Source: Thomasclavelia cocleata
GTDB lineage: Bacteria > Bacillota_I > Bacilli_A > Erysipelotrichales > Coprobacillaceae
Direction of reading: 5' to 3'
NCBI RefSeq assembly: GCF_900102365.1
Contig: NZ_FOIN01000028.1
Span: 1-33,646 of the forward strand
DNA: 33,646 nt
Part shown: one piece after another, positions 22,385 through 33,646 of the stretch
Layout: every line of letters starts with the position of its first letter
Position numbering within the stretch: position 1 is the first letter of the stretch
Notes under the pieces: generated by a model
Database searches by the model: none
What the model saw: only the letters and a program-made list of their open reading frames with translations
What the model was told of the DNA's origin: nothing
Position numbers and translations under genes: made by a program

Positions 22385-22507
22385 AAAGTAGGTTTTATAA
22401 AGGATTGAACCCCTAGTTGTAAATACAGGCTTTGTGAAACATGATGGTTATAACATTTAGAAGTTATTTATCGTCAATATAAAGATATTGGAAAGGAAGG
22501 ATTATAA

Positions 22508-22996
22508 ATGAAAAGAATTATTAGAAAAAATACTTTTGAAACTAACTCTAGTTCATCACATTCGTTTTCGATTTGTATTAAAGATAAAAAAATATCTCAC
22601 CCCAAGGAAATTAACTTTGAGGCACATGAATTTCATAATTATCCATTTGATGGCGACGATATGAGTTCAATGCAAGGTAGAGCAAATTATCTTTATTCTA
22701 TAGCTATTCAATGTTTTATGGAAAATAAATTAAAAGAGGCGTTACAAAAAGCATTACCTAATACTAAGTTAAAGTTTGAACACGAATATAGAGAAATAAA
22801 AAATACCTATTTAATTAATCATCAAGCACAATATGCGGGGTCAGATCTCTTAGACAGAGTCTTGGAAGATAGTGTCTTATTAATAAACTACTTATTGGAT
22901 GATAAAACAGATGTACTGATTACAGGAGACTATGATTATTCAGGTGTAACTGGCGGAAATGATCGATTTGTAATCGGTGATGTTAAATATGAATAA
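22508..22996 (+). CDS. FETNSSS-motif protein 1, 162 aa
   Basis: A GGAAAGGAAGG site precedes the ATG. The N-terminus, KRIIRKNTFETNSSSSHSF, is nearly the same as that of the next gene. I recall the motif 'NTFETNSSSxHS' from many phage and mobile-element hypothetical proteins, with no known function. The rest differs from its neighbour: a Tyr/His-rich middle, helices around 55-85, and an acidic Gly-containing end (ITGDYDYSGVTGGNDRF). Strong conservation limited to the N-terminus suggests a recognition tag or active centre located there. A radical SAM gene follows the second copy. Confidence 0.65.
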   Translation: MKRIIRKNTFETNSSSSHSFSICIKDKKISHPKEINFEAHEFHNYPFDGDDMSSMQGRANYLYSIAIQCFMENKLKEALQKALPNTKLKFEHEYREIKNTYLINHQAQYAGSDLLDRVLEDSVLLINYLLDDKTDVLITGDYDYSGVTGGNDRFVIGDVKYE

Positions 22997-23011
22997 TTAA
23001 GGAGAAAATTA

Positions 23012-23392
23012 ATGAAGAAAATAATTAGAAATAACACTTTTGAGACAAATAGTAGCTCTACTCACAGTTTAACAATGTGCCTGAAATCAGATTATGAAGC
23101 ATGGCAACGTGGAGAAGTTGTTTCAACTGAGAATGTATACCTATATAAAGGTGACAAAACGTTTATAACTATTGACGAAGCTCTTGATTTTATTAAAACA
23201 GAAGAATACTACAAAAACAAAATTAAAGACTATAATTTAACCGACAAGAAATCAATTAGAATATTATTAGATGATTTGGATTTTGGGTTTTATGATGATG
23301 ATAATTATGAATTAGAAAAATTCTATGATGAATTTACAACTTCTTCAGGTGAAATTGTTGTGGCATTTGGAGAATATGGTTATGACGGTTAG
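23012..23392 (+). CDS. FETNSSS-motif protein 2, 126 aa
   Basis: An AAGGAG site lies 7 nt before the ATG. The N-terminus KKIIRNNTFETNSSSTHSL is shared with the preceding gene; the remainder is acidic (DDLDFGFYDDDNYELEKF) and unrelated at sight. Its end overlaps the start of the radical SAM gene by 11 nt, implying translational coupling. The shared N-terminal motif and the coupling raise the possibility that these are substrates or partners of the radical SAM enzyme. This is a hypothesis only. Confidence 0.65.
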   Translation: MKKIIRNNTFETNSSSTHSLTMCLKSDYEAWQRGEVVSTENVYLYKGDKTFITIDEALDFIKTEEYYKNKIKDYNLTDKKSIRILLDDLDFGFYDDDNYELEKFYDEFTTSSGEIVVAFGEYGYDG

Positions 23393-24296
23393 TTTATTGC
23401 GAACATATAGAAATGGCAATGCAAATATTGAATTATATACTGATGGAACAAGAATATGTCAAACAGAAGATAAAGAATTTAATTTTAAAATGCCAATGAA
23501 CATGGACATTAAAGTGACTAATTGTTGCACGTTTGGATGTGACATGTGTCACGAAAACTCATCCCCAGAAGGTAAACATGCACCACTAGAAAACTTTGAT
23601 TTTATCAATAGTTGGGTATCTGGTTCTGAAGCAGCGCTCGGCGGTGGAATGTTGACTAGTTACCCACATTTAGATGAATTGCTAGAAAAGTTATATAAAA
23701 AAGGAATTGTTACTAATGCTACTTTTCATCAAGATGAATTTGTATCTAATATAGATAAGATAAAGTCTTGGCAAGAAAAAGGATATCTTCATGGAATTGG
23801 AGTATCTTTTATAAAAGAATCAGAATGTTTGAAAGAAGTATATGGTGAGGTAGAAAATGTGGTATTCCATGTTATTGCAGGATTAGTTGACTACAAAGAA
23901 TTATCATATTTAATCAATAATTTTTCTAATCCAAAAGTATTAATTTTAGGTTATAAACATTTTCGACGAGGAAATAAGTTATATGAAAAAAATGGAGTTG
24001 AAATAGAAAATAGAATCATTAAATTAAGTAGAAACATCGATTGGTTATTTAAAAATTTTAAGGTAGTTAGCTTTGATAATTTAGCTTTAACTCAACTAAA
24101 TGTACGTAGATGGATTTCAGATTCTGCATGGGATAAGTTTTACCAAGGAGAAGAAGGATCTTCTAATATGTATGTAGATGCAGTTGAAGGTAAGTTTGCT
24201 CGAAACAGTACATCAACTAAGAGGTATAAGCTAACAAATAACATTGAAGAAATGTTTGATGTAATTAAAAAACAAGAAAGGAATGAACAATTATAA
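23382..24296 (+). CDS. Radical SAM protein
   Basis: The start at ATG 23382 is chosen because GGAG (23369-23372) is 9 nt upstream; ATG 23376 is too close and a further upstream ATG at 23325 lacks a site. The [4Fe-4S]-binding CxxxCxxC motif is in TNCCTFGCDMCHENSS. Then come ALGGGMLTSYPHLDELLEKL, resembling the GGE/GG-type SAM-contacting strand, and TIM-barrel-like alternation. No SPASM cysteine cluster is visible in the C-terminal part. The 304-aa size suits a compact radical SAM enzyme acting on RNA, peptide or small molecule. The substrate is unknown. Confidence 0.85.
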   Translation: MTVSLLRTYRNGNANIELYTDGTRICQTEDKEFNFKMPMNMDIKVTNCCTFGCDMCHENSSPEGKHAPLENFDFINSWVSGSEAALGGGMLTSYPHLDELLEKLYKKGIVTNATFHQDEFVSNIDKIKSWQEKGYLHGIGVSFIKESECLKEVYGEVENVVFHVIAGLVDYKELSYLINNFSNPKVLILGYKHFRRGNKLYEKNGVEIENRIIKLSRNIDWLFKNFKVVSFDNLALTQLNVRRWISDSAWDKFYQGEEGSSNMYVDAVEGKFARNSTSTKRYKLTNNIEEMFDVIKKQERNEQL

Positions 24297-25057
24297 ATAA
24301 TATATTAAAAACAACAGAGCAAACTCCTATCGAGATTGCTTTAGGAATAGATGAAAACGGTATGACAACTGCCAGAAAGTTGTATGATTTTTTAGAATTA
24401 GCACCAACGCAATTTGCAAGATGGGCTAAAAAGAACATAGAGAAGAATATATTTTATGATGAGAACAAGGATTGGTGGGGGTTCGACATCATGTCGAGCG
24501 GTAATAAATGTAAAGATTATAAGCTAACAACAGACTTTGCCAAACACTTATCTATGGAATCTCATTCGGTTAGAGGAAAAGAAGCAAGAGATTATTTTGT
24601 AACAGTTGAAAATAAAGCACGTGATACTCAATTGCAGTTACAGAATTTATCACCCGAACTAAGATTATTGATTTCACTAGAACTAAAACAAAATGAACAT
24701 GAAAAACAACTTAAACAAGTCAAAGATGATGTTAAGGGTATTAGAGAAGTTGTAGCTATTGATCACACATCATGGCGAGATGAAACTAATAAGTTGTTAC
24801 GAAAAATAAGTACAAGTTCAAATGGTGAAGTATCTTTTAAGGATGTTAGAAATGAGTCTTATAAACTTCTTGAACGTAGAATGGGAGTTAATTTGCCAAC
24901 AAGATTGACTAACAAACGTAGAAGAATGTTAGAAGAAGGTGTCTGCAAATCTAAAATAGAAAGAACAAATAGTTTAGATGTTATTGCAGATGATAAAAAA
25001 CTAATTGAAGGATATATAGCAATTGTTAAAGAAATAGCTATTAAATATGGTTTGTAA
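24293..25057 (+). CDS. AntA/AntB antirepressor with ORF6C domain, start codon unclear
   Basis: Family-like sequence begins 23 codons before the first ATG (24362): ATA AAT AAT followed by ILKTTEQTPIEIALGIDENG, closely resembling the usual N-terminus of AntA/AntB proteins, which I recall as MNN-L-K-TTEQTPIE. An in-frame TGA lies at 24284, so the gene would need to start at ATT 24290 or ATA 24293 behind AAAGGA, or at the poorly placed ATG 24362. The AntA/AntB domain (ARKLYDFLELAPTQFARWAK, DYKLTTDFAKHLSMES, GKEARDYFVTVE) is followed by a coiled coil and an ORF6C-like end. Either a start-codon mutation or non-AUG initiation has occurred. Confidence 0.85.
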   Translation: MNNILKTTEQTPIEIALGIDENGMTTARKLYDFLELAPTQFARWAKKNIEKNIFYDENKDWWGFDIMSSGNKCKDYKLTTDFAKHLSMESHSVRGKEARDYFVTVENKARDTQLQLQNLSPELRLLISLELKQNEHEKQLKQVKDDVKGIREVVAIDHTSWRDETNKLLRKISTSSNGEVSFKDVRNESYKLLERRMGVNLPTRLTNKRRRMLEEGVCKSKIERTNSLDVIADDKKLIEGYIAIVKEIAIKYGL

Positions 25058-25058
25058 A

Positions 25059-25670
25059 ATGGAACAGAAATTTAGAGCATTTTATCAGGGCGATATTGAA
25101 GATTACTATGATCTAACATTTTACTCTCAAGTTATTGAGGGTGAAATGTGGTTTGTTTGCAATAAAGATTCAGACATTAAATTTGAAGCATCGTATGTTT
25201 TTGGTGGTGAAGATTGGGTTATAAACATGTGTACTGGATTAACAGATTTGAATGATGAATTAATATATGAGGGTGATATTTTACCTTTTGAATTATCAAA
25301 TAAAACATTTGAATATTATTATATAAAATATGATGATGAAAATTGTCAATTTAAAGCTGTAAATAAATGTGATACAAATATTATTCATCACGATATGTGG
25401 GGAAACTCATCAGTTGCTGGGAATATTCACTGCAATAAAATTCTTCTTGATAATTTGGATTTGCCACAAATCGGATCATTAGCAATGATTAAAACATCTG
25501 GCGAAAGTATCTATTTATCAAACAAATGGTATAGAAATAATGAAAATCTGCAAAATGACATTGATAAAGCATATTACTCGCTAAAAAACATAGTTGAGAA
25601 ACTTAATAAAGAAATCTTTACACTTAAATCAAGAAATATATTTCAAAGAATTTTCAGAAAATATGAATAA
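25059..25670 (+). CDS. YopX-like phage protein, 203 aa
   Basis: The ATG at 25059 follows the previous stop by one base; an in-frame ATG at 25047 overlaps it. No good ribosome site is present, so translation is likely coupled. The N-terminus KFRAFYQGDIEDYYD and the segment NMCTGLTDLNDELIYEGDIL match the YopX pattern ('TGLkDknGkeIYEGDil'). An additional Trp-rich strand and a helical basic tail follow. YopX proteins are small beta-barrel phage proteins of unknown function. Confidence 0.75.
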   Translation: MEQKFRAFYQGDIEDYYDLTFYSQVIEGEMWFVCNKDSDIKFEASYVFGGEDWVINMCTGLTDLNDELIYEGDILPFELSNKTFEYYYIKYDDENCQFKAVNKCDTNIIHHDMWGNSSVAGNIHCNKILLDNLDLPQIGSLAMIKTSGESIYLSNKWYRNNENLQNDIDKAYYSLKNIVEKLNKEIFTLKSRNIFQRIFRKYE

Positions 25671-25685
25671 AGGAGAAAATTTATA

Positions 25686-25856
25686 ATGGACGTTGTTGTA
25701 ACTACAATTGGGTACGTTATAGGAGTTGGTGGGATTGTTTGTGCAATCATAAAGATATGTCAAGAAAAACATGATAATTCTAAATATATGATTATCATGA
25801 TGGCTTGTGTTGCCATTATATATATTACAAATTTGATTGCCGAATCAATTAGATAA
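25686..25856 (+). CDS. Small two-span membrane protein, 56 aa
   Basis: AAAGGAG lies 9 nt before the ATG. The 56-aa product has two hydrophobic stretches (about 3-24, VVVTTIGYVIGVGGIVCAII, and 36-50, MIIMMACVAIIYITN) joined by a polar KICQEKHDNSKY loop. The size and two spans resemble holin-like or small regulatory membrane proteins, but no family is recognised and no endolysin is nearby. Confidence 0.6.
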   Translation: MDVVVTTIGYVIGVGGIVCAIIKICQEKHDNSKYMIIMMACVAIIYITNLIAESIR

Positions 25857-25891
25857 AAGAACTGTTTTAATTAAAAGGATGGTATAAATAT

Positions 25892-26422
25892 ATGAAGAAT
25901 GTTAACAAAAAACTTCAATACTTAATAAGCTTTAAAACATATAAGGACATTTGCGATATGTATTCAAAAATACAAAATAATGTACCGCTCTATATTGTCG
26001 AATCGTTATATGTAAACGCAGTAGATGAAGTGCTTAAGGAATATAATTGTAATACTCTAACCGAAGGAAATCTTAGTTGGGGGAGAGGGCACGTATATGC
26101 AAGAGACAAATTAATCAAAAAGCTATTATATTGGCTTGAAGATAAAGAAGAAATTAATAATTCAAAGGAGAAAAGAGAGCAAATGAAAACACTAAATGAA
26201 AGAATGGAAGAGTTTTTAAATAATTATTATGACTTGAAGAAAAATAGAATAATTGATAAATATAATGAATTAATAACACAAGCAAAAGAAAAATCTAACA
26301 AAGAAGCAGCAACTAAATTAATTCAAAAAATAGCATCCAATTCATACAAAATAGATGTTAGTAAAATTAAAAATTGTTTGCCAGATGGTTATGCTGAAAA
26401 TGAGTTATCTATTGCTATTTAA
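25892..26422 (+). CDS. Hypothetical helical protein, 176 aa
   Basis: An AAAAGGATGG site precedes the ATG. The protein is charged and almost wholly helical: residues 1-60 mixed, then a long Lys/Glu coiled-coil-like region (about 85-150; KEKREQMKTLNERMEEFLNN). No signal peptide, membrane segment or catalytic motif is seen. The C-terminal PDGYAENELS may be a small cap. No function is assigned. It is followed closely by a 62-aa gene and the GHKL-like gene, likely one transcript. Confidence 0.6.
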   Translation: MKNVNKKLQYLISFKTYKDICDMYSKIQNNVPLYIVESLYVNAVDEVLKEYNCNTLTEGNLSWGRGHVYARDKLIKKLLYWLEDKEEINNSKEKREQMKTLNERMEEFLNNYYDLKKNRIIDKYNELITQAKEKSNKEAATKLIQKIASNSYKIDVSKIKNCLPDGYAENELSIAI

Positions 26423-26467
26423 GGGCTTAAGTTAATAGATAAAAACAATGAAGAAGTTAAATTATGT

Positions 26468-26656
26468 TTGTCGGAGGAAGATAAAACTGCACTATCAAGA
26501 TTAGCTACATTAAAAAATACTGAATTGGGTAATTTAAATGAATTACTAAGCCAGGTCAAAATGTTAATATTAACATGTGAAAGTGACCATGACTTTAAAG
26601 AAATTTTGACTGCTTACAATATAATTGACAAAACAACTGGGAGATTGATTGTCTAA
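26468..26656 (+). CDS. Hypothetical protein, 62 aa
   Basis: The only start available is TTG at 26468; the ribosome site is poor and the frame is open for some codons upstream. The product is small, acidic and helical (LSRLATLKNTELGNLNELLS). Its TAA overlaps the ATG of the GHKL-like gene by one base, suggesting that it is coexpressed with it, perhaps as a partner. Real coding is likely because the frame is open and coupled, but the start is uncertain. Confidence 0.45.
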   Translation: MSEEDKTALSRLATLKNTELGNLNELLSQVKMLILTCESDHDFKEILTAYNIIDKTTGRLIV

Positions 26657-27882
26657 TGTCTGAAGTCTATGAATTAAGTTTGAGTAAAAATTATGTAAGT
26701 AGTTGGACAATTAGTGATGCAATAAGAGAGATTCTTCAAAACGCAATTGATAGTGAAAAAGATGGTCATAAAATGTATGTAAATTATGATGTAGAAAATG
26801 AAGAGTTGTTAATTGGGAATAAACATACATATATTGATAAAAGTACTCTAATTCTTGGAATTGGTGATAAAACTAATAATAATAAAATGATCGGCGGAAA
26901 TGCTGAAGGATATAAATTAGCATTAGTGGTCTTATTAAGAAATAATCACAATGTTGTTATTTCTAATAGCGAATATTTATGGGAACCTTACTTTGAATAT
27001 TCTGATACTTTTAATACAGAATTATTAAAAGTTAAATCAACAAAATGTTTAGATAATAATAATCTAGAATTTAAAATTAATAACATTTCATCATTAGTAT
27101 TTGAAGATTTAAAAAATGATTTTCCTTGTATAGAAAATGATTTTGGAAAGGTAATTAATACAGTTAATGGACAAATTCTATTAGATATGAAATTCAAAGG
27201 GAAGATGTTCGTTGAGGGTTTATATGTACAATCAGATGACAACTTTCAATTTGGATATAATTTTAATGCATGTGAAGTTAAATTGGATCGTGATAGAAAG
27301 GCTATTAACTATTATGATTTAAAAAAATTAACTGCAAAAGCAGCAATTACGGTAGAAGAATGTAATGATGAAATTTACAAACAGATAGTTAGAAGTAGTA
27401 CCGATACTTCGAAAATAGCCGACATAATAGATTTTTTAGATGATGACTTTGCAAAAGAATTTACTGCAAAATTTTATGAGGAAAATAAACTTGATGATGA
27501 TGTTATGGTAGCTACTTCTGGTGTAGGAAAATTATTAGAAAAAGAGGGGTACAAAACATTTGAATCTAATGAAAATGTATCAGCTATTGTAGCTAAAGCA
27601 AAAGATAAAGAGGATATATTAGATGAGGCTAAAGATAAAATGAGAAAACAATCAAATGAATCAAGTGCTTGGTCAGAATTTGAAGACTCTAATACCAGAA
27701 GAATACTTAGATTATTATATAAAATACAAAATAAATTATCTAAAAGTGAACATGACGAACTATATGATATTGCAATTGATGTATCTGATTACAGTTTTAA
27801 ATACATTCAAGAGGTTGTAAAAGATAGTTTGCCAGAGTGTTTGGAAGATAAATATATTAATGAAAGGTTAGAGGAGTGTTAG
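26656..27882 (+). CDS. GHKL-type ATP-binding protein, 408 aa
   Basis: The start overlaps the preceding stop by one base. The N-terminal part carries GHKL (Hsp90/MutL/histidine kinase) landmarks: the N-box AIREILQNAIDSEKDG (E and N that bind Mg-ATP) and GIGDKTNNNKMIGGNAEGYK, resembling the G1/G2 boxes. A beta-rich middle domain follows, then charged helices (about 300-345) and an end helical bundle. There is no H-box or receiver domain, so it is not a conventional sensor kinase. It may act like MORC or phage ATPases that remodel DNA or proteins. The role is unknown. Confidence 0.7.
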   Translation: MSEVYELSLSKNYVSSWTISDAIREILQNAIDSEKDGHKMYVNYDVENEELLIGNKHTYIDKSTLILGIGDKTNNNKMIGGNAEGYKLALVVLLRNNHNVVISNSEYLWEPYFEYSDTFNTELLKVKSTKCLDNNNLEFKINNISSLVFEDLKNDFPCIENDFGKVINTVNGQILLDMKFKGKMFVEGLYVQSDDNFQFGYNFNACEVKLDRDRKAINYYDLKKLTAKAAITVEECNDEIYKQIVRSSTDTSKIADIIDFLDDDFAKEFTAKFYEENKLDDDVMVATSGVGKLLEKEGYKTFESNENVSAIVAKAKDKEDILDEAKDKMRKQSNESSAWSEFEDSNTRRILRLLYKIQNKLSKSEHDELYDIAIDVSDYSFKYIQEVVKDSLPECLEDKYINERLEEC

Positions 27883-28059
27883 ATGTATTATAAATTTACT
27901 TGTAATATGACATGTACTGGCAAGGGGTATGTTGAAGCTGATTCATTAGAAGATGCAAAGCAAAAAATATTAACTGGCTGTTACGATGATATTTATGATG
28001 AGACTGATCACAAAATTGCTGAAATAGTTGCAATCGAGAAAGATGATTGTGAACAATAA
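27883..28059 (+). CDS. Small DpnD/PcfM-like protein, 58 aa
   Basis: ATG follows the GHKL gene's stop directly, with GAGGAG 8 nt upstream. The pattern FTCNMTCTGKGYVEADSLED and AKQKILTGCYDDIY resembles DpnD/PcfM-type small beta-alpha proteins ('v.v.EA.s.eeA'), a family of unknown function in mobile elements. The assignment is by pattern only. It contains four Cys. It is too short for most gene callers' default cutoffs, but its coupling and ribosome site are good. Confidence 0.55.
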   Translation: MYYKFTCNMTCTGKGYVEADSLEDAKQKILTGCYDDIYDETDHKIAEIVAIEKDDCEQ

Positions 28060-28118
28060 TAGTTGTGATTTGTATGTTGATTTAACAAAAAAATGGATTA
28101 ACTAACGAAGAAGTTAAA

Positions 28119-28238
28119 ATGGTAAACAAATTAGTCAAAAAAACAGGTGTTTTATTCTATGAGTTAACTATTAGCTATCTAGAGTTTAAGAAACTAGGTG
28201 AATTATTTAACGATAATATTAATGAAAGTGAGAATTAA
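28119..28238 (+). CDS. Possible 39-aa peptide
   Basis: ATG at 28119 with a weak GAAG site. The frame extends a few codons upstream with protein-like sequence (GLTNEEVKMVNKLVKK), but its earlier start appears lost: ATG GAT TAA in the neighbouring frame sits just there. The peptide is helical and polar. This may be a decaying small gene. Confidence 0.3.
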   Translation: MVNKLVKKTGVLFYELTISYLEFKKLGELFNDNINESEN

Positions 28239-28261
28239 AATGGAGATTTAAAGGAGTCTAA

Positions 28262-29017
28262 ATGGATAAAACAAAATTAGGAAATCGTATGAAAGAATAC
28301 GAAAATCAATCACAAACAAAGCTGTTAAGAAGATTGCCTGTTATTATTCGTGTTGATGGCAAAGCTTTCCATACATTTACTAAAGGTCTAAATAAACCGT
28401 TTGATATAGACTTTTGTGATGTTATGAAGCATACAATGAAAAAATTATGTCAACAAATTCAAGGATGCGTTTTGGCTTATTGTCAAAGCGATGAGATAAC
28501 ACTTGTTTTAGTAGACTATAAAAATATCAACAGCGATGCTTGGTTTGATAATAAAGTTCAAAAAATGGTTTCAACAAGTGCAGCTTTAGCCACTTTATAT
28601 TTCAATCAAGAAGTTGAATCAAAAAATTGTTTTAGTGCGGTATATTTTCCAGATGAAGAAAATTTATGGGAAAAGAGATGCTTTAAAGCTTCATTTGATT
28701 CAAGGGCATTTAATTTGCCTAAGCATGAAGTTGTGAACTGCTTGATTTGGAGACAACAGGATGCTATTAGAAATAGTATTCAAGCATTGGCTCAATCTAG
28801 ATTCTCACATAATGAAATGCAAGGCTTGAATTGTGATGAATTAAAAGAGAAACTGTCTGTTGAGGAAGGTGTTCATTGGGATAAATTACCCAATGAATTA
28901 CAAAGAGGTGTTTGTTGTATTAAAGATGGTGATGGAAATTGGGTTATTGATTATAACATACCATTATTTACAGATGAAAGAGATTATATTAACAATTTAG
29001 TTATGCTAGAACAATAG
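28262..29017 (+). CDS. Thg1-like protein: 3'-5' RNA polymerase (tRNA-His guanylyltransferase family)
   Basis: AAAGGAG lies 6 nt before the ATG. Landmarks are IIRVDGKAFHTFTKG (metal-binding D32 and glycine) and LAYCQSDEITLVL (D77, E78), the two-metal catalytic set of the Thg1 family, plus FNQEVES and FKASFDSRAFNLP and WRQQDAIRNSIQALAQ (nucleotide and tRNA contacts). Thg1 adds G to tRNA-His; bacterial and phage Thg1-like proteins add templated nucleotides to 5'-truncated tRNAs in the reverse direction. At 251 aa the length is normal. It begins the compact NAD operon, 9 nt before the nicotinamidase gene, and could repair tRNAs cut by host defence nucleases. The latter is inference. Confidence 0.92.
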   Translation: MDKTKLGNRMKEYENQSQTKLLRRLPVIIRVDGKAFHTFTKGLNKPFDIDFCDVMKHTMKKLCQQIQGCVLAYCQSDEITLVLVDYKNINSDAWFDNKVQKMVSTSAALATLYFNQEVESKNCFSAVYFPDEENLWEKRCFKASFDSRAFNLPKHEVVNCLIWRQQDAIRNSIQALAQSRFSHNEMQGLNCDELKEKLSVEEGVHWDKLPNELQRGVCCIKDGDGNWVIDYNIPLFTDERDYINNLVMLEQ

Positions 29018-29026
29018 GAGAAAGAA

Positions 29027-29557
29027 ATGAAAAAGAAATTATTAATTGTGGTGGATATGCAAAATGACTTTATTGATGGTTCTTTGGGAACAAATGAAGC
29101 TAGGGCAATTTTACCAAATGTTATAGATAAAATTAAAGAATATAAAGACAAGCCTGATTCAAGAATAGTATTTACTTTAGATACACATAACGAGAATTAT
29201 CTCAATACAAACGAAGGTATAAATTTACCAATAATTCATTGTATTAAGGGGAGCTATGGTTGGTGTTTGAATGGAGAAATATTAAAATTAATTAAACCTA
29301 AACCAAAACAATTATTTGAAAAGAAAACATTTGGGTCAGTAAAATTAGCTCAATATGTAAAAAAACATCAGTTTACTGATATTGAAATTGTTGGATTATG
29401 TACTGATATCTGTGTAGTAAGTAACGCATTGCTAATTAAGACGTTCTGTCCAGAAATACATATTGTTATTAATTCAAAGTGTTGTGCTGGAACAACTTCA
29501 GAAAATCATAAATATGCACTTAAAACAATAAATTCCTGCCAAATAGAGGTGATATAA
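29027..29557 (+). CDS. pncA: Nicotinamidase/isochorismatase-family hydrolase
   Basis: TAGGAGAAAG precedes the ATG. The 176-aa protein shows the cysteine-hydrolase fold: VVDMQNDFIDGSL with catalytic D10, a metal-site-like region LDTHNEN (D52, H54) and H71, a lysine in FEKKTFGS (about K99/K100), and the nucleophile region VGLCTDICVVSNAL (C129). These fit nicotinamidase, which converts nicotinamide to nicotinate. Its position directly before Prs-like and NAMPT-like genes and upstream of NAD synthetase supports a role in NAD metabolism rather than isochorismate hydrolysis. With NadE it would allow a deamidated route back to NAD+. Confidence 0.85.
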   Translation: MKKKLLIVVDMQNDFIDGSLGTNEARAILPNVIDKIKEYKDKPDSRIVFTLDTHNENYLNTNEGINLPIIHCIKGSYGWCLNGEILKLIKPKPKQLFEKKTFGSVKLAQYVKKHQFTDIEIVGLCTDICVVSNALLIKTFCPEIHIVINSKCCAGTTSENHKYALKTINSCQIEVI

Positions 29558-29558
29558 A

Positions 29559-30389
29559 ATGATTTTAATTAATGATAGTAAATTAAAACTAAATCATTTT
29601 CCTGATGGCACATTACATTTAACTCCTTCATGCGAAATTAAAACAGTTAATATTATCAAATGGTATTATGAAAATGAAGAAGAATTAATTGCTTTAATTT
29701 ATATTACAAATTATTTAAAAGAGCATGGTGGAAAAGAAAATGAATTACATATGCCATATATTCCTAACGCAAGAATGGATAGAATCAAGACAAAGAGAGA
29801 TGTATTTACATTAAAATATTTCGCCAATATTATAAATTCATTAGGATTTAAAAAAGTGCTATCAATTGATCCACATTCGCCAGTTAGCGAAGCTTTGATT
29901 GATAATTTATATTTACTTGACTTAAATGTATTTGTAAGACGACTTATATTAAGAGATATTAATATTAACGAAAATATTAATGAAGATGACTTAATTGTTT
30001 ATTTCCCCGATAATGGGGCTAGTAAAAAATACGAAGATTTATTTCGTGGGTTTAAAACTTGTTATGGAGTAAAACATCGTGATTGGACAAGCGGGAAAAT
30101 TATGGGGCTTGAAATAATTACAAACGAAATTGATTTGAAAGACAAGACCGTATTAATGTTTGATGATATTTGTAGTTATGGTGGATCAATGTATTATGGT
30201 GCAAATAAATTAAAAGAACTTGGAGCAAAAAAGATTTATGCTTATGTAAGTCATTGCGAAAATAGTATTTTAGATAGAGAAAGAGGAACTTTAATTAAAT
30301 CACTGGAAGATGGCACAGTAGAAAGACTGTTTACTACTAATAGTTTATTTACTGGAAAACACGAGAAAATTGAAGTTATAAAGGTTTAA
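29559..30389 (+). CDS. PRPP-synthetase-like enzyme, candidate ADP-ribose pyrophosphate synthetase (NARP1 Adps)
   Basis: GAGGTG within the preceding gene serves as ribosome site. Landmarks of the Prs family: FPDGT (14-18), the flexible-loop region MPYIPNARMDRIK (65-77), metal-binding IDPHSP (D104, H106), and the PRPP loop VLMFDDICSYGGSM (198-211). At 276 aa it is shorter than the roughly 315-aa bacterial Prs. In the published NARP1 pathway, a phage Prs homologue (Adps) pyrophosphorylates ADP-ribose rather than ribose-5-phosphate. The gene pair with a NAMPT-like enzyme and no adenylyltransferase fits NARP1; ordinary PRPP supply for NAMPT (NARP2-like) is the alternative. Confidence 0.9.
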   Translation: MILINDSKLKLNHFPDGTLHLTPSCEIKTVNIIKWYYENEEELIALIYITNYLKEHGGKENELHMPYIPNARMDRIKTKRDVFTLKYFANIINSLGFKKVLSIDPHSPVSEALIDNLYLLDLNVFVRRLILRDININENINEDDLIVYFPDNGASKKYEDLFRGFKTCYGVKHRDWTSGKIMGLEIITNEIDLKDKTVLMFDDICSYGGSMYYGANKLKELGAKKIYAYVSHCENSILDRERGTLIKSLEDGTVERLFTTNSLFTGKHEKIEVIKV

Positions 30390-30403
30390 GAAAGGAAAAT
30401 GAA

Positions 30404-31867
30404 ATGAAAAATTTAACAACCTTATTATTGTCGGATACATATAAACAAACACATCTGCGAATGTTTCCTAAGGATTTAACAAAATTGGTTTCTTATTGGA
30501 CACCTAGAAAAGCGATGTCAGAGAAGTATGATAAAATGGTGTTCTTTGGTTTGCAGGAGTTTATCAAAAAGTATCTTGTCGAAGATTTTAATAATAACTT
30601 TTTTAACAAACCAATAGATGAGGTTATTGGAGAATATAATTCCTATATGGACACACAATTAGGCGAAGGAAACTATGATTTGGACGCAATCATAAATCTT
30701 CATAAATTAGGGTATCTACCCATTCTAATTAGAGCATTGCCTGAAGGAAGTATTGTTAATATGGGAGTTCCTTGTATTGAATTGACAAATACTCATCCAG
30801 ATTTTGCGTGGGTTGTACAATGGCTAGAATGTATTCTACAAGTAGAATTATGGCCAACATGTAATTACGCTACTATTGGAAAGATTTATAAGGAAGTAGC
30901 AAACAAATATTATGATCTAACAGTTGATAATATGGATTCTAGAATGGCTATGTCAGACTTTGGAATGAGAGGTATGTCATGTTTAGAAGATTCTATTAGA
31001 ACATCTGCATCATGGCTGTTATCTTTTGATAAGACAAGTACAATCCCCGCATTGCAATATATTAGAGAATATTATAATGCTGATAAAAATATTGGAATTG
31101 GAGCTGTATCTACAGAGCATGCAGTTATGGGAGCTAACTTCTCAGTTGATGGCGATGAAATCACTTTTGTAAAAAGATTATTAACAGAATTATATCCTAA
31201 TACTTCATTCAGCATGGTATCTGATACTTATGATTATTGGAATATAGTAAAAAATATTTTACCTCAATGCAAAGAAGAAATTATGAATCACAATGGAAAG
31301 TTATTAATTAGACCTGATAGCGGAGATATTGTTGAAATATCAATTGAAACAATTAAACTCTTGTGGAAAACATTTGGTGGAAGTATCAATAGTAAAGGAT
31401 ATAAAGTATTAGATCCTCATATTGGCATTATTTATGGGGATGGATGTACTATAAATAAAGTCGAAGAAATCTATGAAGAGTTATATAAACTAGGGTTTGC
31501 TGCTAACAACATTGTATTTGGAGTAGGAGCGTTCTGCTTCCATGCTATTTTTGAAGATGATGGAAAGTTTATTGTTAATACAAGAGATACATTTGGTATT
31601 GCTATGAAGGCTACTTATGGGGAAGTTGGAAATTTCAAATTCCCTATTTATAAAAATCCTAAAACAGACACATCAAAATTAAAGAAATCTCATAAAGGTT
31701 GTTGTGCTGTTATTAAAACAGAAGATGGATATAAATGCGTAGATGGATATAATTGTTTAGTTTCTACAGAAAATACGTCATTAGAAAAAATGTTTAGCAA
31801 TGGTATGTTAAAAAGAGAAGAATCATTTGAACAAATTCGTCAAAGATTAAATAAAGGAGAATTTTAA
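30404..31867 (+). CDS. nadV: NAMPT/NadV-like phosphoribosyltransferase, candidate Namat of NARP1
   Basis: AAAGGAAAA precedes the ATG. The 487-aa protein has the full NAMPT signature: LLLSDTYKQTHLRMFP, SDFGMRGMSC (D185-F-G-M-R-G), the catalytic-histidine segment STEHAVMG (H239), IRPDSGD (ribose-phosphate contacts), and VFGVGAFC. NAMPT joins nicotinamide to PRPP to make NMN. In the NARP1 system a NAMPT-like protein (Namat) instead joins nicotinamide to ADPR-PP and makes NAD+ directly. Sequence reading alone cannot tell these apart, but lack of an NMN adenylyltransferase in the operon favours the latter. It overlaps the next gene by one base. Confidence 0.93.
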   Translation: MKNLTTLLLSDTYKQTHLRMFPKDLTKLVSYWTPRKAMSEKYDKMVFFGLQEFIKKYLVEDFNNNFFNKPIDEVIGEYNSYMDTQLGEGNYDLDAIINLHKLGYLPILIRALPEGSIVNMGVPCIELTNTHPDFAWVVQWLECILQVELWPTCNYATIGKIYKEVANKYYDLTVDNMDSRMAMSDFGMRGMSCLEDSIRTSASWLLSFDKTSTIPALQYIREYYNADKNIGIGAVSTEHAVMGANFSVDGDEITFVKRLLTELYPNTSFSMVSDTYDYWNIVKNILPQCKEEIMNHNGKLLIRPDSGDIVEISIETIKLLWKTFGGSINSKGYKVLDPHIGIIYGDGCTINKVEEIYEELYKLGFAANNIVFGVGAFCFHAIFEDDGKFIVNTRDTFGIAMKATYGEVGNFKFPIYKNPKTDTSKLKKSHKGCCAVIKTEDGYKCVDGYNCLVSTENTSLEKMFSNGMLKREESFEQIRQRLNKGEF

Positions 31868-32298
31868 TGATTGATAACTTTAGAGGTAAATATCGTTTTT
31901 TAAGCAATTATTATGAAACACCAATTGAATATGATGGGATAGTTTATCTTAATAATGAAGCTGCTTTTCAAGCACAAAAAATAACTAGAATTAGTGAAAA
32001 GATTAAATTTCAAAATTTAAATCCTGTCGAAGCCAAGAAACTAGGGAGAAAAATACTTTTAAGAGATGATTGGGAAAAAGTAAAAGAAAAATATATGTAT
32101 GAAATTGTTAAAGCAAAATTTACTCAACACCAATATTTAAAGAAAAAGTTATTAGATACATATCCTCATGAATTGATTGAAGGAACGACTGGTTGGCATG
32201 ATAATATTTGGGGCAATTGTGAGTGTCCTAAGTGTAAAGATATTGTAGGAGAAAACAAACTAGGCAAAATTTTAATGAAAGTTAGAAGTGAGATTTGA
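31867..32298 (+). CDS. NADAR-family protein (YbiA/DUF1768-like)
   Basis: AAAGGAG lies within the end of the previous gene and the start overlaps its stop by one base. FRGKYRFLSNYYETPIEYDG, LNNEAAFQAQKI and GWHDNIWGNCEC...LGKILMKVR are hallmark NADAR motifs. NADAR proteins bind ADP-ribose/NAD derivatives; some hydrolyse riboflavin-pathway intermediates and others remove ADP-ribose from guanine in DNA, reversing DarT-type defence. The Cys pair in CECPKC is unusual-looking but also seen in phage members I recall. Its place between NAMPT-like and NAD synthetase genes points to ADP-ribose chemistry. Confidence 0.9.
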   Translation: MIDNFRGKYRFLSNYYETPIEYDGIVYLNNEAAFQAQKITRISEKIKFQNLNPVEAKKLGRKILLRDDWEKVKEKYMYEIVKAKFTQHQYLKKKLLDTYPHELIEGTTGWHDNIWGNCECPKCKDIVGENKLGKILMKVRSEI

Positions 32299-32300
32299 TA

Positions 32301-32699
32301 ATGGACTATTATTTAAGCCCAGATAATTGTTATCAAAGATTAGAAGATGAGTTTATAAAATATGGCAAATTAATCATTGCTGTAGATTTTGATGATACAA
32401 TTTATGATTTCCATAGGCTTGGACGAACATATACAAATGTTATTAACTTATTAAAAAGATGGGATAGATATGCACAAATTATTATCTTTACGGGTAATGG
32501 AGTAGATAAACTTTCCGAAATAAAATCTTATTGCAATAGATATGGAATTCCTTATGATGGGATTAATTGTAATTCAATGGTAAAAGTAAATGGACGTAAG
32601 ATATATGCCAATGCTTATTTAGACGATAGAGGTGGATTGCCTATGGTATATGATCATCTTAATACATTAATTGAAAAAATAGAAAAAGGAGTGATTTAG
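32301..32699 (+). CDS. Small HAD-superfamily hydrolase
   Basis: ATG at 32301 follows the NADAR stop by two bases; an upstream TTG (32295) is not needed. The HAD motif I is VDFDDTIYD (two Asp: nucleophile and acid/base), a motif II-like strand is IIIFTGNG, and a late acidic motif is AYLDDRGG. At 132 aa it lacks a large cap domain, resembling phage HAD phosphatases that act on nucleotides or nucleic-acid ends. In this operon a nucleotide-type substrate is a reasonable guess, for example removing a phosphate in NAD recycling, but the sequence does not identify it. Confidence 0.8.
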   Translation: MDYYLSPDNCYQRLEDEFIKYGKLIIAVDFDDTIYDFHRLGRTYTNVINLLKRWDRYAQIIIFTGNGVDKLSEIKSYCNRYGIPYDGINCNSMVKVNGRKIYANAYLDDRGGLPMVYDHLNTLIEKIEKGVI

Positions 32700-32700
32700 C

Positions 32701-33441
32701 ATGTATAAGTTTGATGCTAAAAAAGTAAAAGATGAAATAGTTTCTTTTATAAAAGATTGGTTTGATAAAAATGGCAAAGATTGTAATGCTGTTGTTGGAA
32801 TATCTGGCGGAGTTGACTCTTCAGTTGCAGCAGCCTTATGTGTAGAGGCATTAGGGAAAGAAAGAGTAAGAGGATTGCTTATGCCTTGTGGAGAACAAGA
32901 AGATATCAGCTATTCTTATTTTCTTTGTGGACAACTTGGGATCAGTTTTGATGTTATGAATATATTTAATGCAGTAACTGCTATTAATAATCAATTTCCA
33001 CCAAGTGTTGAGGTTTCAAAACAAACTATTATAAATCTTCCTGCTAGAATTAGAATGGCTACATTATATGCATATTCTCAATCGGTTAATGGCAGAGTTG
33101 TCAATACTTGTAATTTATCAGAGGATTGGATAGGATATTCAACCAGATATGGAGATAGTGTTGGGGATTTTAGCCCACTATCAAAACTTACAAAGACAGA
33201 AGTAAAACTTATTGGCAAAGAATTGGGACTATCCAATATACTAATAGATAAAGTTCCAACTGATGGACTTTGTGGGAAAACCGATGAAGAAAATTTTGGT
33301 TTTTCCTATGAAATTTTAGACAAATATATTCGCACTGAGGAAATAGATGATTTAGATATTAAAAACACAATTGATAAAATGCATAAAAAAAATTTATTTA
33401 AATTTCAACCAATGCCATGTTTTGAATATATAGCAAACTAA
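32701..33441 (+). CDS. nadE: NAD synthetase (NadE, ammonia-dependent type)
   Basis: AAAAAGGAG precedes the ATG with good spacing. The ATP-pyrophosphatase P-loop is VGISGGVDSS (32-41). NLPARIRMATLYA (QARxRM-like region), NTCNLSEDWIGYSTRYGD (matching the NKsE...GY.T.yGD motif, with Ser for Lys differences) and GDFSPLSKLTKTEV follow, and PTDGLCGKTDEENFGF is the usual late motif. It converts nicotinate adenine dinucleotide to NAD+ with ammonia and ATP. At 246 aa it lacks the glutaminase domain. With PncA it closes a deamidated branch; the intermediate adenylation step is not encoded here. Confidence 0.93.
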   Translation: MYKFDAKKVKDEIVSFIKDWFDKNGKDCNAVVGISGGVDSSVAAALCVEALGKERVRGLLMPCGEQEDISYSYFLCGQLGISFDVMNIFNAVTAINNQFPPSVEVSKQTIINLPARIRMATLYAYSQSVNGRVVNTCNLSEDWIGYSTRYGDSVGDFSPLSKLTKTEVKLIGKELGLSNILIDKVPTDGLCGKTDEENFGFSYEILDKYIRTEEIDDLDIKNTIDKMHKKNLFKFQPMPCFEYIAN

Positions 33442-33472
33442 GAAACATTAAAAAAACAAGGAGAAAATAAAA

Positions 33473-33646
33473 ATGCTAAAACAAATAACACAAGAAGAAC
33501 TAAATAAAATATTAAATCTTCATGAAAAATGGTTAAATAATGAATATGGTGGAGCTAGAGCAGATTTAATTGACGCAAATTTAATTAATGCAAATTTAAG
33601 TAATGCAGATTTAAGTAATGCAGATTTAAGTTATGCAGATTTAAGT
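33473..33646 (+). CDS. Pentapeptide-repeat protein, N-terminal part (3' end outside window)
   Basis: AAGGAG lies about 9 nt upstream of the ATG. After about 28 helical residues (QITQEELNKILNLHEKWLNN), repeats begin: ADLID ANLIN ANLSN ADLSN ADLSY ADLS, running off the end. The DNA coding for one unit, 33589-33607, is identical for 19 bases to window positions 1-19, in the same repeat register. The gene is separated from nadE by 31 nt. Confidence 0.8.
   Translation, partial: MLKQITQEELNKILNLHEKWLNNEYGGARADLIDANLINANLSNADLSNADLSYADLS

Follow-up and report, generated by a model that had tools for sequence, protein, structure and literature searches.

What does a phage gain by carrying a nicotinamidase and an NAD synthetase around what looks like an NAD+ reconstitution pathway 1 (NARP1) gene pair, and which pyridine base does such a pair use? 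The question is raised by contig NZ_FOIN01000028.1 of Thomasclavelia cocleata (assembly GCF_900102365.1), the whole 33,646-nucleotide stretch of which is called the window here, and in particular by a run of seven open reading frames (ORFs) between positions 28262 and 33441, all on the plus strand, which an earlier inspection of the sequence (the original prediction) had pointed out and whose coordinates our analysis reproduces. The ORFs encode, in order, a Thg1-like protein, a nicotinamidase (PncA), a Prs-like protein, a NAMPT-like protein, a NADAR protein, a small HAD-type protein and an NAD synthetase (NadE), and they are separated by gaps of +9, +1, +14, -1, -4 and +1 nt, as computed from the ORF coordinates. 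In our view the operon probably derives from NARP1 but works with nicotinate, rebuilding NAD+ from ADP-ribose and nicotinamide by way of nicotinic acid adenine dinucleotide (NaAD), a reading in which the catalytic steps and a role against host defence are inferred from the observed genes, their order, phylogeny, pocket residues and co-occurrence.

In the proposed route, immune NADases would cleave NAD+ to ADP-ribose and nicotinamide, PncA (29027-29557; PF00857 Isochorismatase, 3.1e-23) would convert the nicotinamide to nicotinate, and the Prs-like protein, read here as Adps-like (276 aa; 29559-30389), would use ATP to pyrophosphorylate ADP-ribose to ADP-ribose pyrophosphate (ADPR-PP). The NAMPT-like protein, read as a variant Namat (487 aa; 30404-31867) with a NAPRT-like pyridine pocket and a retained adenine-side Phe, would then join nicotinate and ADPR-PP to give NaAD and pyrophosphate, bypassing nicotinic acid mononucleotide (NaMN) and any NadD/NadM step, and NadE, a lone synthetase domain (32701-33441; PF02540 NAD_synthase, 6.1e-51; TIGR00552 above its cut-off), would amidate NaAD to NAD+. 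A possible reason for such a switch of base lies in the nicotinamidase-like genes of the host, in whose presence freed nicotinamide would not last. Both ends of the route have the active-site residues expected of them: D10, K99 and C129 together with D52, H54 and H71, which we take to be the catalytic and metal-binding residues of PncA, are conserved at 0.99-1.00 among 129 aligned PncAs from such clusters, and the SGGxDS motif of NadE is conserved at 0.99-1.00 in 108 aligned sequences.

The identity of the NAMPT-like protein is central to this reading. It matches the NAMPT_N and NAPRTase families of Pfam, and its closest solved structures, by sequence as well as by fold, are those of Namat with nicotinamide and with NAD (9w5x and 9w5w); in the fold comparison its AlphaFold model (pLDDT 94.9) gives a Z score of 46.1 (root-mean-square deviation 1.3) with Namat, 43.9 with HdNadV and about 42-43 with human NAMPT. 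The nicotinamide pocket of SpbetaL1 Namat comprises F189, R192, D215, A242, R306, D13 and Y15, with D215 hydrogen-bonded to nicotinamide (PMC12774641). The window protein retains five of these seven residues (D13, Y15, F189, R192 and R306) and has serines at the other two positions, i.e., S212 in place of D215 (codon 31037-31039) and S236 in place of A242 (codon 31109-31111); H239, F377 (equivalent to F392) and the TRD motif at 393-395 were mapped in the same way. The Asp that binds the amide in NARP1 is therefore missing, and the equivalent Asp of other family members (human D219, Xcc D203) gives way to Ser in NAPRT (PMC4442680, PMC10907753). Among 18 NAPRTs from the host and its relatives, 17 have A at this position and 1 has S, with T opposite A242, as read by eye from motifs, the profile alignments being noisy. 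The protein falls far outside the NAPRT (PncB) family itself, scoring 21.9 bits against TIGR01513 (cut-off 297.4; host PncB 547), and judged by sequence it is only its pocket that is NAPRT-like. These two substitutions were not part of the original prediction and strengthen its suggestion that NaAD might be formed from nicotinate, the catalysis itself being still a prediction; the pair would also provide a simple sequence test by which nicotinamide-type and nicotinate-type Namats can be told apart.

The same two positions divide the whole family. We compared 353 proteins with a length of 380 aa or more (one from the window, one from SpbetaL1 and the others from 351 loci), of which 311 distinct ones were left when 42 core-identical copies had been dropped; since the loci came from query-driven scans, the larger of which contributed their best 80 matches each, and from regions of a phage collection, the proportions given here are not population frequencies. 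At the D215 position there are 161 D, 3 E, 133 A and 14 S, and the second position follows the first without exception, S242 accompanying A/S215 in 147/147 proteins and A242 accompanying D/E215 in 164/164. The three Glu residues at the nicotinamide-amide position belong to two Lak megaphages (L140 and L149) and to L105. We refer to the A/S215 proteins as variants, to those with D/E215 and F/Y392 as classical NARP1, and to those with G/A392 as NARP2-like (a residue that, by this definition, is no independent evidence for the group); five others remain. In a quick tree of 82 rows, from which the trait columns had been removed, the 34 sampled variants form one branch (SH-aLRT 100), as do 20 NARP2-like rows (100) and 28 classical rows (87).

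The original prediction had treated PncA and NadE as parts of the system, and their distribution bears this out. Within the fetched stretches, the 146 variant loci have PncA nearby in 132 cases, Adps in 138 and NadE in 135, whereas the 98 classical NARP1 loci have Adps in 91 cases and neither PncA nor NadE in any; the 60 NARP2-like loci have PncA in none, Adps in 1, NadE in 1 and NadM in 51, and the five other loci have neither PncA nor NadE. PncA, Adps, a Namat-like gene and NadE occur together in 56/66 viral loci of the variant clade and in 66/80 genome loci (the best 80 of the genome scan, mostly from metagenome-assembled genomes of gut Clostridia), and such recurrence across viral and genome loci argues that the cluster is not a product of chance. 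The commonest order is PncA-Adps-Namat-(macrodomain)-NadE, which is reshuffled in several loci. Searches of entire records point the same way: ten variant virus records were selected for their lack of a PncA, Adps or NadE gene near Namat, and 8 of them turned out to encode NadE and 7 PncA, in some cases tens of kb or more away, whereas 30 classical records yielded no PncA and, for NadE, two weak partial matches (1e-5), none of them full-length, and ten NARP2 records yielded no PncA and one NadE. It appears, then, that PncA and NadE go with the variant Namat even when they are unlinked from it, and as the variants are one clade, this association reflects joint inheritance over a long time and not a large number of separate events. 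The single NadE of the NARP2 records (L340) lies about 5 kb from the NAMPT gene of its locus. The NadE of Synechococcus phage Bellamy, which was also considered, sits among glycosyltransferase-type genes and was set aside as belonging to an unrelated context.

This pattern makes it very improbable that the operon is an ordinary NARP1 in which PncA, NadE, NADAR and HAD are unrelated metabolic cargo, even though the NARP1 core is present and metabolic genes are common in phages: PncA and NadE accompany the altered pocket, even when they lie elsewhere in the record, and are absent near all 98 classical loci.

The partner of the variant Namat lies side by side with it, at a gap of 14 nt, as in NARP1. 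The Prs-like protein of the window matches Pribosyltran_N and Pribosyltran of Pfam at threshold, and its AlphaFold model (pLDDT 94.9) has the Prs fold. A tree of 243 proteins places the 137 variant-associated Prs-like proteins with 90/91 partners of classical Namats and apart from 15 true Prs, from which this Adps clade is separated by a branch of 1.64 (support 0.987). One loop, which in Prs has the sequence DDMIDTGGT or a similar one, is DDICSYGGS in the window protein, DDICS[YRK]GGT in most Adps of variant loci, DDLSSFGGT in SpbetaL1 Adps and DDICDGGGTF in DyoEdafos Adps. The Prs references, from the host and its relatives, were picked from 20 loci by the pattern DT[AG], which makes the loop contrast, as distinct from the tree and the hidden Markov model scores, partly circular; the five loci left out also have DTGG or DTAG. 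Adps of SpbetaL1 and DyoEdafos have been shown to feed ADPR-PP to Namat (PMC12774641, PMC13232231). By phylogeny the Prs-like protein is a member of the Adps group, whose substrate is ADP-ribose, and not of the ribose-5-phosphate-using Prs, and with the NAMPT-like protein nearest to Namat this upholds the NARP1 ancestry that had been proposed for the cluster.

Whether the variant Namat would also use ADPR-PP depends on the adenine side of its active site, and here the evidence is of two kinds. At the adenine-stacking position 392, the window protein has the aromatic residue of NARP1 (F377), as do nearly all of its relatives: the residue is F in 145/147 variants, F or Y in classical Namat and G or A in the NARP2-like group, and HdNadV, which forms nicotinamide mononucleotide (NMN), has Q (at position 392) and R at the two positions of the clamp. 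The remainder of the selectivity clamp is the weakest link in the case for ADPR-PP use. The Namat signature GSX-Phi-X-Phi-X-Phi-TRD (PMC12774641) is not matched by the window sequence GAFCFHAIFEDDGKFIVNTRD (31526-31588), which retains the Phe at X1 and TRD, has Ala for the Ser of the motif, and has lost the second aromatic residue; an insert of 10 residues is predicted in the window model to form a beta hairpin (strands E381-383 and E389-391). The variants as a group likewise keep TRD, contain the insert and lack the second aromatic residue at the aligned position. At the position aligned with the stacking residue of the SCL loop, which is R, K or Y in NARP1, the window protein has M38 and 132/133 of its A-type relatives have R, within a loop whose alignment is uncertain. 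The adenine site lies at the dimer interface and the models are monomeric, so the clamp is not to be judged from them.

A gut phage, Phass-1 (OQ749652), has genes for a nicotinamidase, a Prs-like protein with the loop DDICSRGGTF, a NAMPT-like protein, a 139-aa protein and NadE in a row, and its NAMPT-like protein pairs A215 and S242 with the canonical clamp GIGAYTYQYVTRD, including Y392 and Y396 (GAYTYQYVTRD), which indicates that a nicotinate-type pocket and an ADPR-PP clamp can occur together. Its Namat is nearest to classical rows in a quick tree of 86 rows, joins the variants at a support of 54 in a tree of 35 rows, and is not rejected when constrained to the classical rows (p-AU 0.416); on these placements, Phass-1 may or may not represent an independent origin of the pocket. 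A viral scan with this Namat as the query found nothing. The article on Phass-1 tabulates a nicotinamidase, and a term search of it found no discussion of a pathway (PMC10607447). The ORF of 139 aa between the NAMPT-like and NadE genes (L430 8576-8995) is uncharacterised.

Several observations weigh against a nicotinate-using NARP1 derivative. The clamp of the window protein departs from Namat in the Ala at the motif Ser, the hairpin of 10 residues, V at 396 and M at 40, which makes a preference for ADPR-PP less sure than in a canonical Namat. Even Namat proper accepts phosphoribosyl pyrophosphate (PRPP; PMC12774641), so that NaMN might be formed instead. The title of entry 6ta0 describes human NAMPT crystallised with nicotinic acid, so the amide-binding Asp is not an absolute determinant of the base. 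Because the 147 variants form one clade, the altered pocket and its association with the added genes count as few independent events. A NadM-like gene near 5/146 variant loci would fit a PRPP route, and the host has PncA-like, PncB, NadD-like and NadE genes of its own, so simple boosting of the Preiss-Handler pathway is conceivable.

In the main rival explanation, PRPP is the product of the Prs-like protein, the NAMPT-like protein has converged on NAPRT and forms NaMN, NadD of the host or NadM of the phage converts this to NaAD, and NadE finishes the route. The NAPRT-like pocket, the PRPP activity retained by Namat (PMC12774641) and the host NadD-like and PncB genes would all suit it. It would leave unexplained why the Prs-like proteins group with Adps and do not have the DT[AG]G loop of Prs, why F392 is kept in 145/147 variants where NARP2-like proteins have G or A and HdNadV has Q, and why the whole Namat clamp persists in Phass-1. 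As for the adenylyltransferase on which it depends, the window's own contig (C73) has no match to PF01467, the NadD/NadM/CoaD superfamily, and neither does the 129.7-kb virus record described below, in agreement with the earlier statement that no NadD or NadM is present; six matches lie elsewhere in the same genome. The cluster thus has neither the NadM/NMN adenylyltransferase that stands beside NadV in 51/60 NARP2-type loci nor the NadD-type NaMN adenylyltransferase of the Preiss-Handler pathway. Among variant virus records PF01467 was found in 6/20, which would suit the rival, and was absent from 14/20, which counts against it, distant matches occurring in the records of L014, L015, L016 and L120 and, as a second match, in that of L018. 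The original prediction would have been undone by a Prs/NadV grouping together with a NadM gene in the same phage, a combination that the phage of the window does not have. Taken together, we regard a PRPP-fed booster as unlikely, while giving it some weight.

'NadM' matches near 54 variant loci (2 S-type and 52 A-type) had at first been read as proof of a PRPP route and are mostly of another kind: 44 have an NrtR-type pattern (NFRRK or a longer form), which Pfam bears out for two (L234 and L284), five are other Nudix matches, and five are NMN-adenylyltransferase-like (L010, scanned with NCBIfam; L217, scanned with Pfam; L181, L176 and L220). The nucleotidyltransferase of L018 is RfaE/glycerol-3-phosphate-cytidylyltransferase-like.

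The original prediction went on to propose a self-contained pathway of two branches, in which one enzyme takes nicotinamide (to NAD+) as well as nicotinate (to NaAD), both with ADPR-PP. The other residues of the nicotinamide pocket, which are kept in the window protein, would allow this. The amide-binding Asp is gone in 147/147 variants, however, the D215A mutation lowers the activity of SpbetaL1 Namat about 8-fold (PMC12774641), and the co-encoded PncA would remove nicotinamide. This loss and this nicotinamidase count against two branches, a reading that we consider quite unlikely, and we argue instead for a single nicotinate branch that has replaced the nicotinamide branch.

The nicotinate-using NARP1 derivative that we favour can be set against the systems that it resembles. 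With NARP1 (Adps and Namat, e.g., of SPbetaL1, Bas63 and DyoEdafos) it shares mostly adjacent Adps-like and Namat-like genes, the Namat fold and catalytic core, the adenine-stacking Phe and the Adps clade, and it differs in its D215 to S/A and A242 to S pocket, its remodelled clamp hairpin, its added PncA and NadE and a predicted product that is NaAD rather than NAD+. With NARP2 (NadV and NadM) it has in common a NAMPT-family enzyme and the reuse of NADase-released nicotinamide, but the operon lacks NadM, has an Adps-like partner, has Phe where NARP2 has Gly or Ala, and belongs to a separate clade. The Preiss-Handler pathway (PncA, PncB/NAPRT, NadD and NadE) likewise begins with nicotinate and ends with NadE, whereas the window operon has a NAMPT/Namat-family enzyme, no NadD step and ADPR-PP as its predicted donor. 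RyDEP-NARP1 of mycobacteriophage DyoEdafos (PMC13232231) also joins a NARP1 locus to an ADP-ribose-releasing gene, a feeder role that NADAR or a macrodomain could have here; the window operon has NADAR (a macrodomain in relatives) rather than a RyR domain, plus the nicotinate route. Finally, Paenibacillus foliorum has a bacterium-borne Adps-Namat pair that regenerates NAD+ from nicotinamide (PMC12774641), to which the bacterial variant operons add PncA, NadE and, often, NrtR.

We lean towards the wider view that these operons represent a third NAD+ reconstitution route, based on a new nicotinate ADP-ribosyltransferase activity (with ADPR-PP as the donor, yielding NaAD and pyrophosphate) that requires no adenylyltransferase, and that phages use them to counter immunity based on NAD depletion, with gut bacteria having them in the chromosome for NAD repair, often beside NrtR. 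If so, NAD+ would be made from nicotinate and ADP-ribose without NadD, a reaction that we did not find described in a collection of open-access papers, where we found nothing that links NARP1 with a nicotinamidase and nothing relevant on nicotinate with ADPR-PP in a phage; a 2022 survey of viral NAD and ADP-ribose systems gave no hits for nicotinamidase, NadE, NAMPT, Prs or NAD synthetase by term search (PMC9503650). The route would also explain how phages rebuild NAD+ in hosts that have their own nicotinamidase, for if the host deamidates freed nicotinamide anyway, an enzyme that uses nicotinate is the better tool. It would, in addition, give a function to the PncA-Prs-NAMPT-NadE operon (often with NrtR) of gut Lachnospiraceae and Ruminococcus, the products of which are named as phosphoribosyl enzymes in databases.

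One such bacterial copy, in an isolate of Pseudoruminococcus massiliensis (L234), has the order PncA-Adps-Namat-NadE-NrtR in a chromosomal setting between AgrB and esterase genes, and its NadE of 648 aa includes a carbon-nitrogen hydrolase domain. Bacterial copies often adjoin NrtR, a regulator that ADP-ribose releases from DNA (PMC12735969, PMC6800001); the ligand sensed by NrtR is the predicted first substrate of the operon. Beside the bacterial operons of L237 (5454-7619) and L240 there are ORFs of 720-721 aa, and that of L237 consists of a radical-SAM-like N-terminal part followed by an NrtR-type domain, so the regulator may be fused.

As for the other genes of the run, the assignments as Thg1, nicotinamidase (of the isochorismatase fold), Prs-like, NAMPT/NAPRT-like, NADAR and NAD synthetase are consistent across Pfam, PHROGs and NCBIfam, and that of HAD is weaker; most ORF starts are preceded by GGAG- or GGTG-like ribosome sites. 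The first gene (28262-29017) encodes an accessory Thg1-like tRNA-His guanylyltransferase of 251 aa (PF04446, 3.8e-32; phrog_4717, 8.7e-87), and Thg1 is found near 6/13 S-type, 10/133 A-type and 0/98 classical loci. NADAR (31867-32298; PF08719, 6.8e-27) is predicted to release ADP-ribose from ADP-ribosyl compounds and may be a feeder of the pathway, a role for which the candidates near the 146 variant loci are NADAR in 8 and a macrodomain in 42. The small HAD-type protein of 134 aa (32295-32699; phrog_1238, 4.8e-21; NCBIfam BT0820-type HAD phosphatase, 3.8e-07, below cut-off) starts with TTG or, alternatively, with ATG at 32301.

The window is contig C73 of a 2.96-Mb genome of 88 contigs and includes an integrase and a sigma-factor-like gene. 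Its operon end matches a 129.7-kb IMG/VR virus record (locus L005 of record G001), positions 1-11244 of L005 being 99.98% identical to window positions 22405-33646 in an alignment that is free of mismatches and has two gap openings, and the record continues into contig C48 of the window's own genome. The PncA and Namat ORFs are open in the window and broken in L005 (6623-6976 and 8001-8189), possibly through sequencing errors. A tandem region resembling pentapeptide repeats lies at the contig end (window 33560-33646 and 1-546; L005 11218-12138), and window bases 1-546 match the continuation of the virus record located in C48; the contig ends may represent a collapsed repeat or a duplicated junction. 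Upstream of the operon, an ORF of 408 aa (26656-27882) matches phrog_6077 and no Pfam family, and its start reads like what we take to be the N-box of a GHKL ATPase (REILQNAIDS). Seven anti-repressor-type ORFs (1127, 3622, 8631, 15365, 16445, 18067 and 24362) lie within the 33.6 kb, an unusual density.

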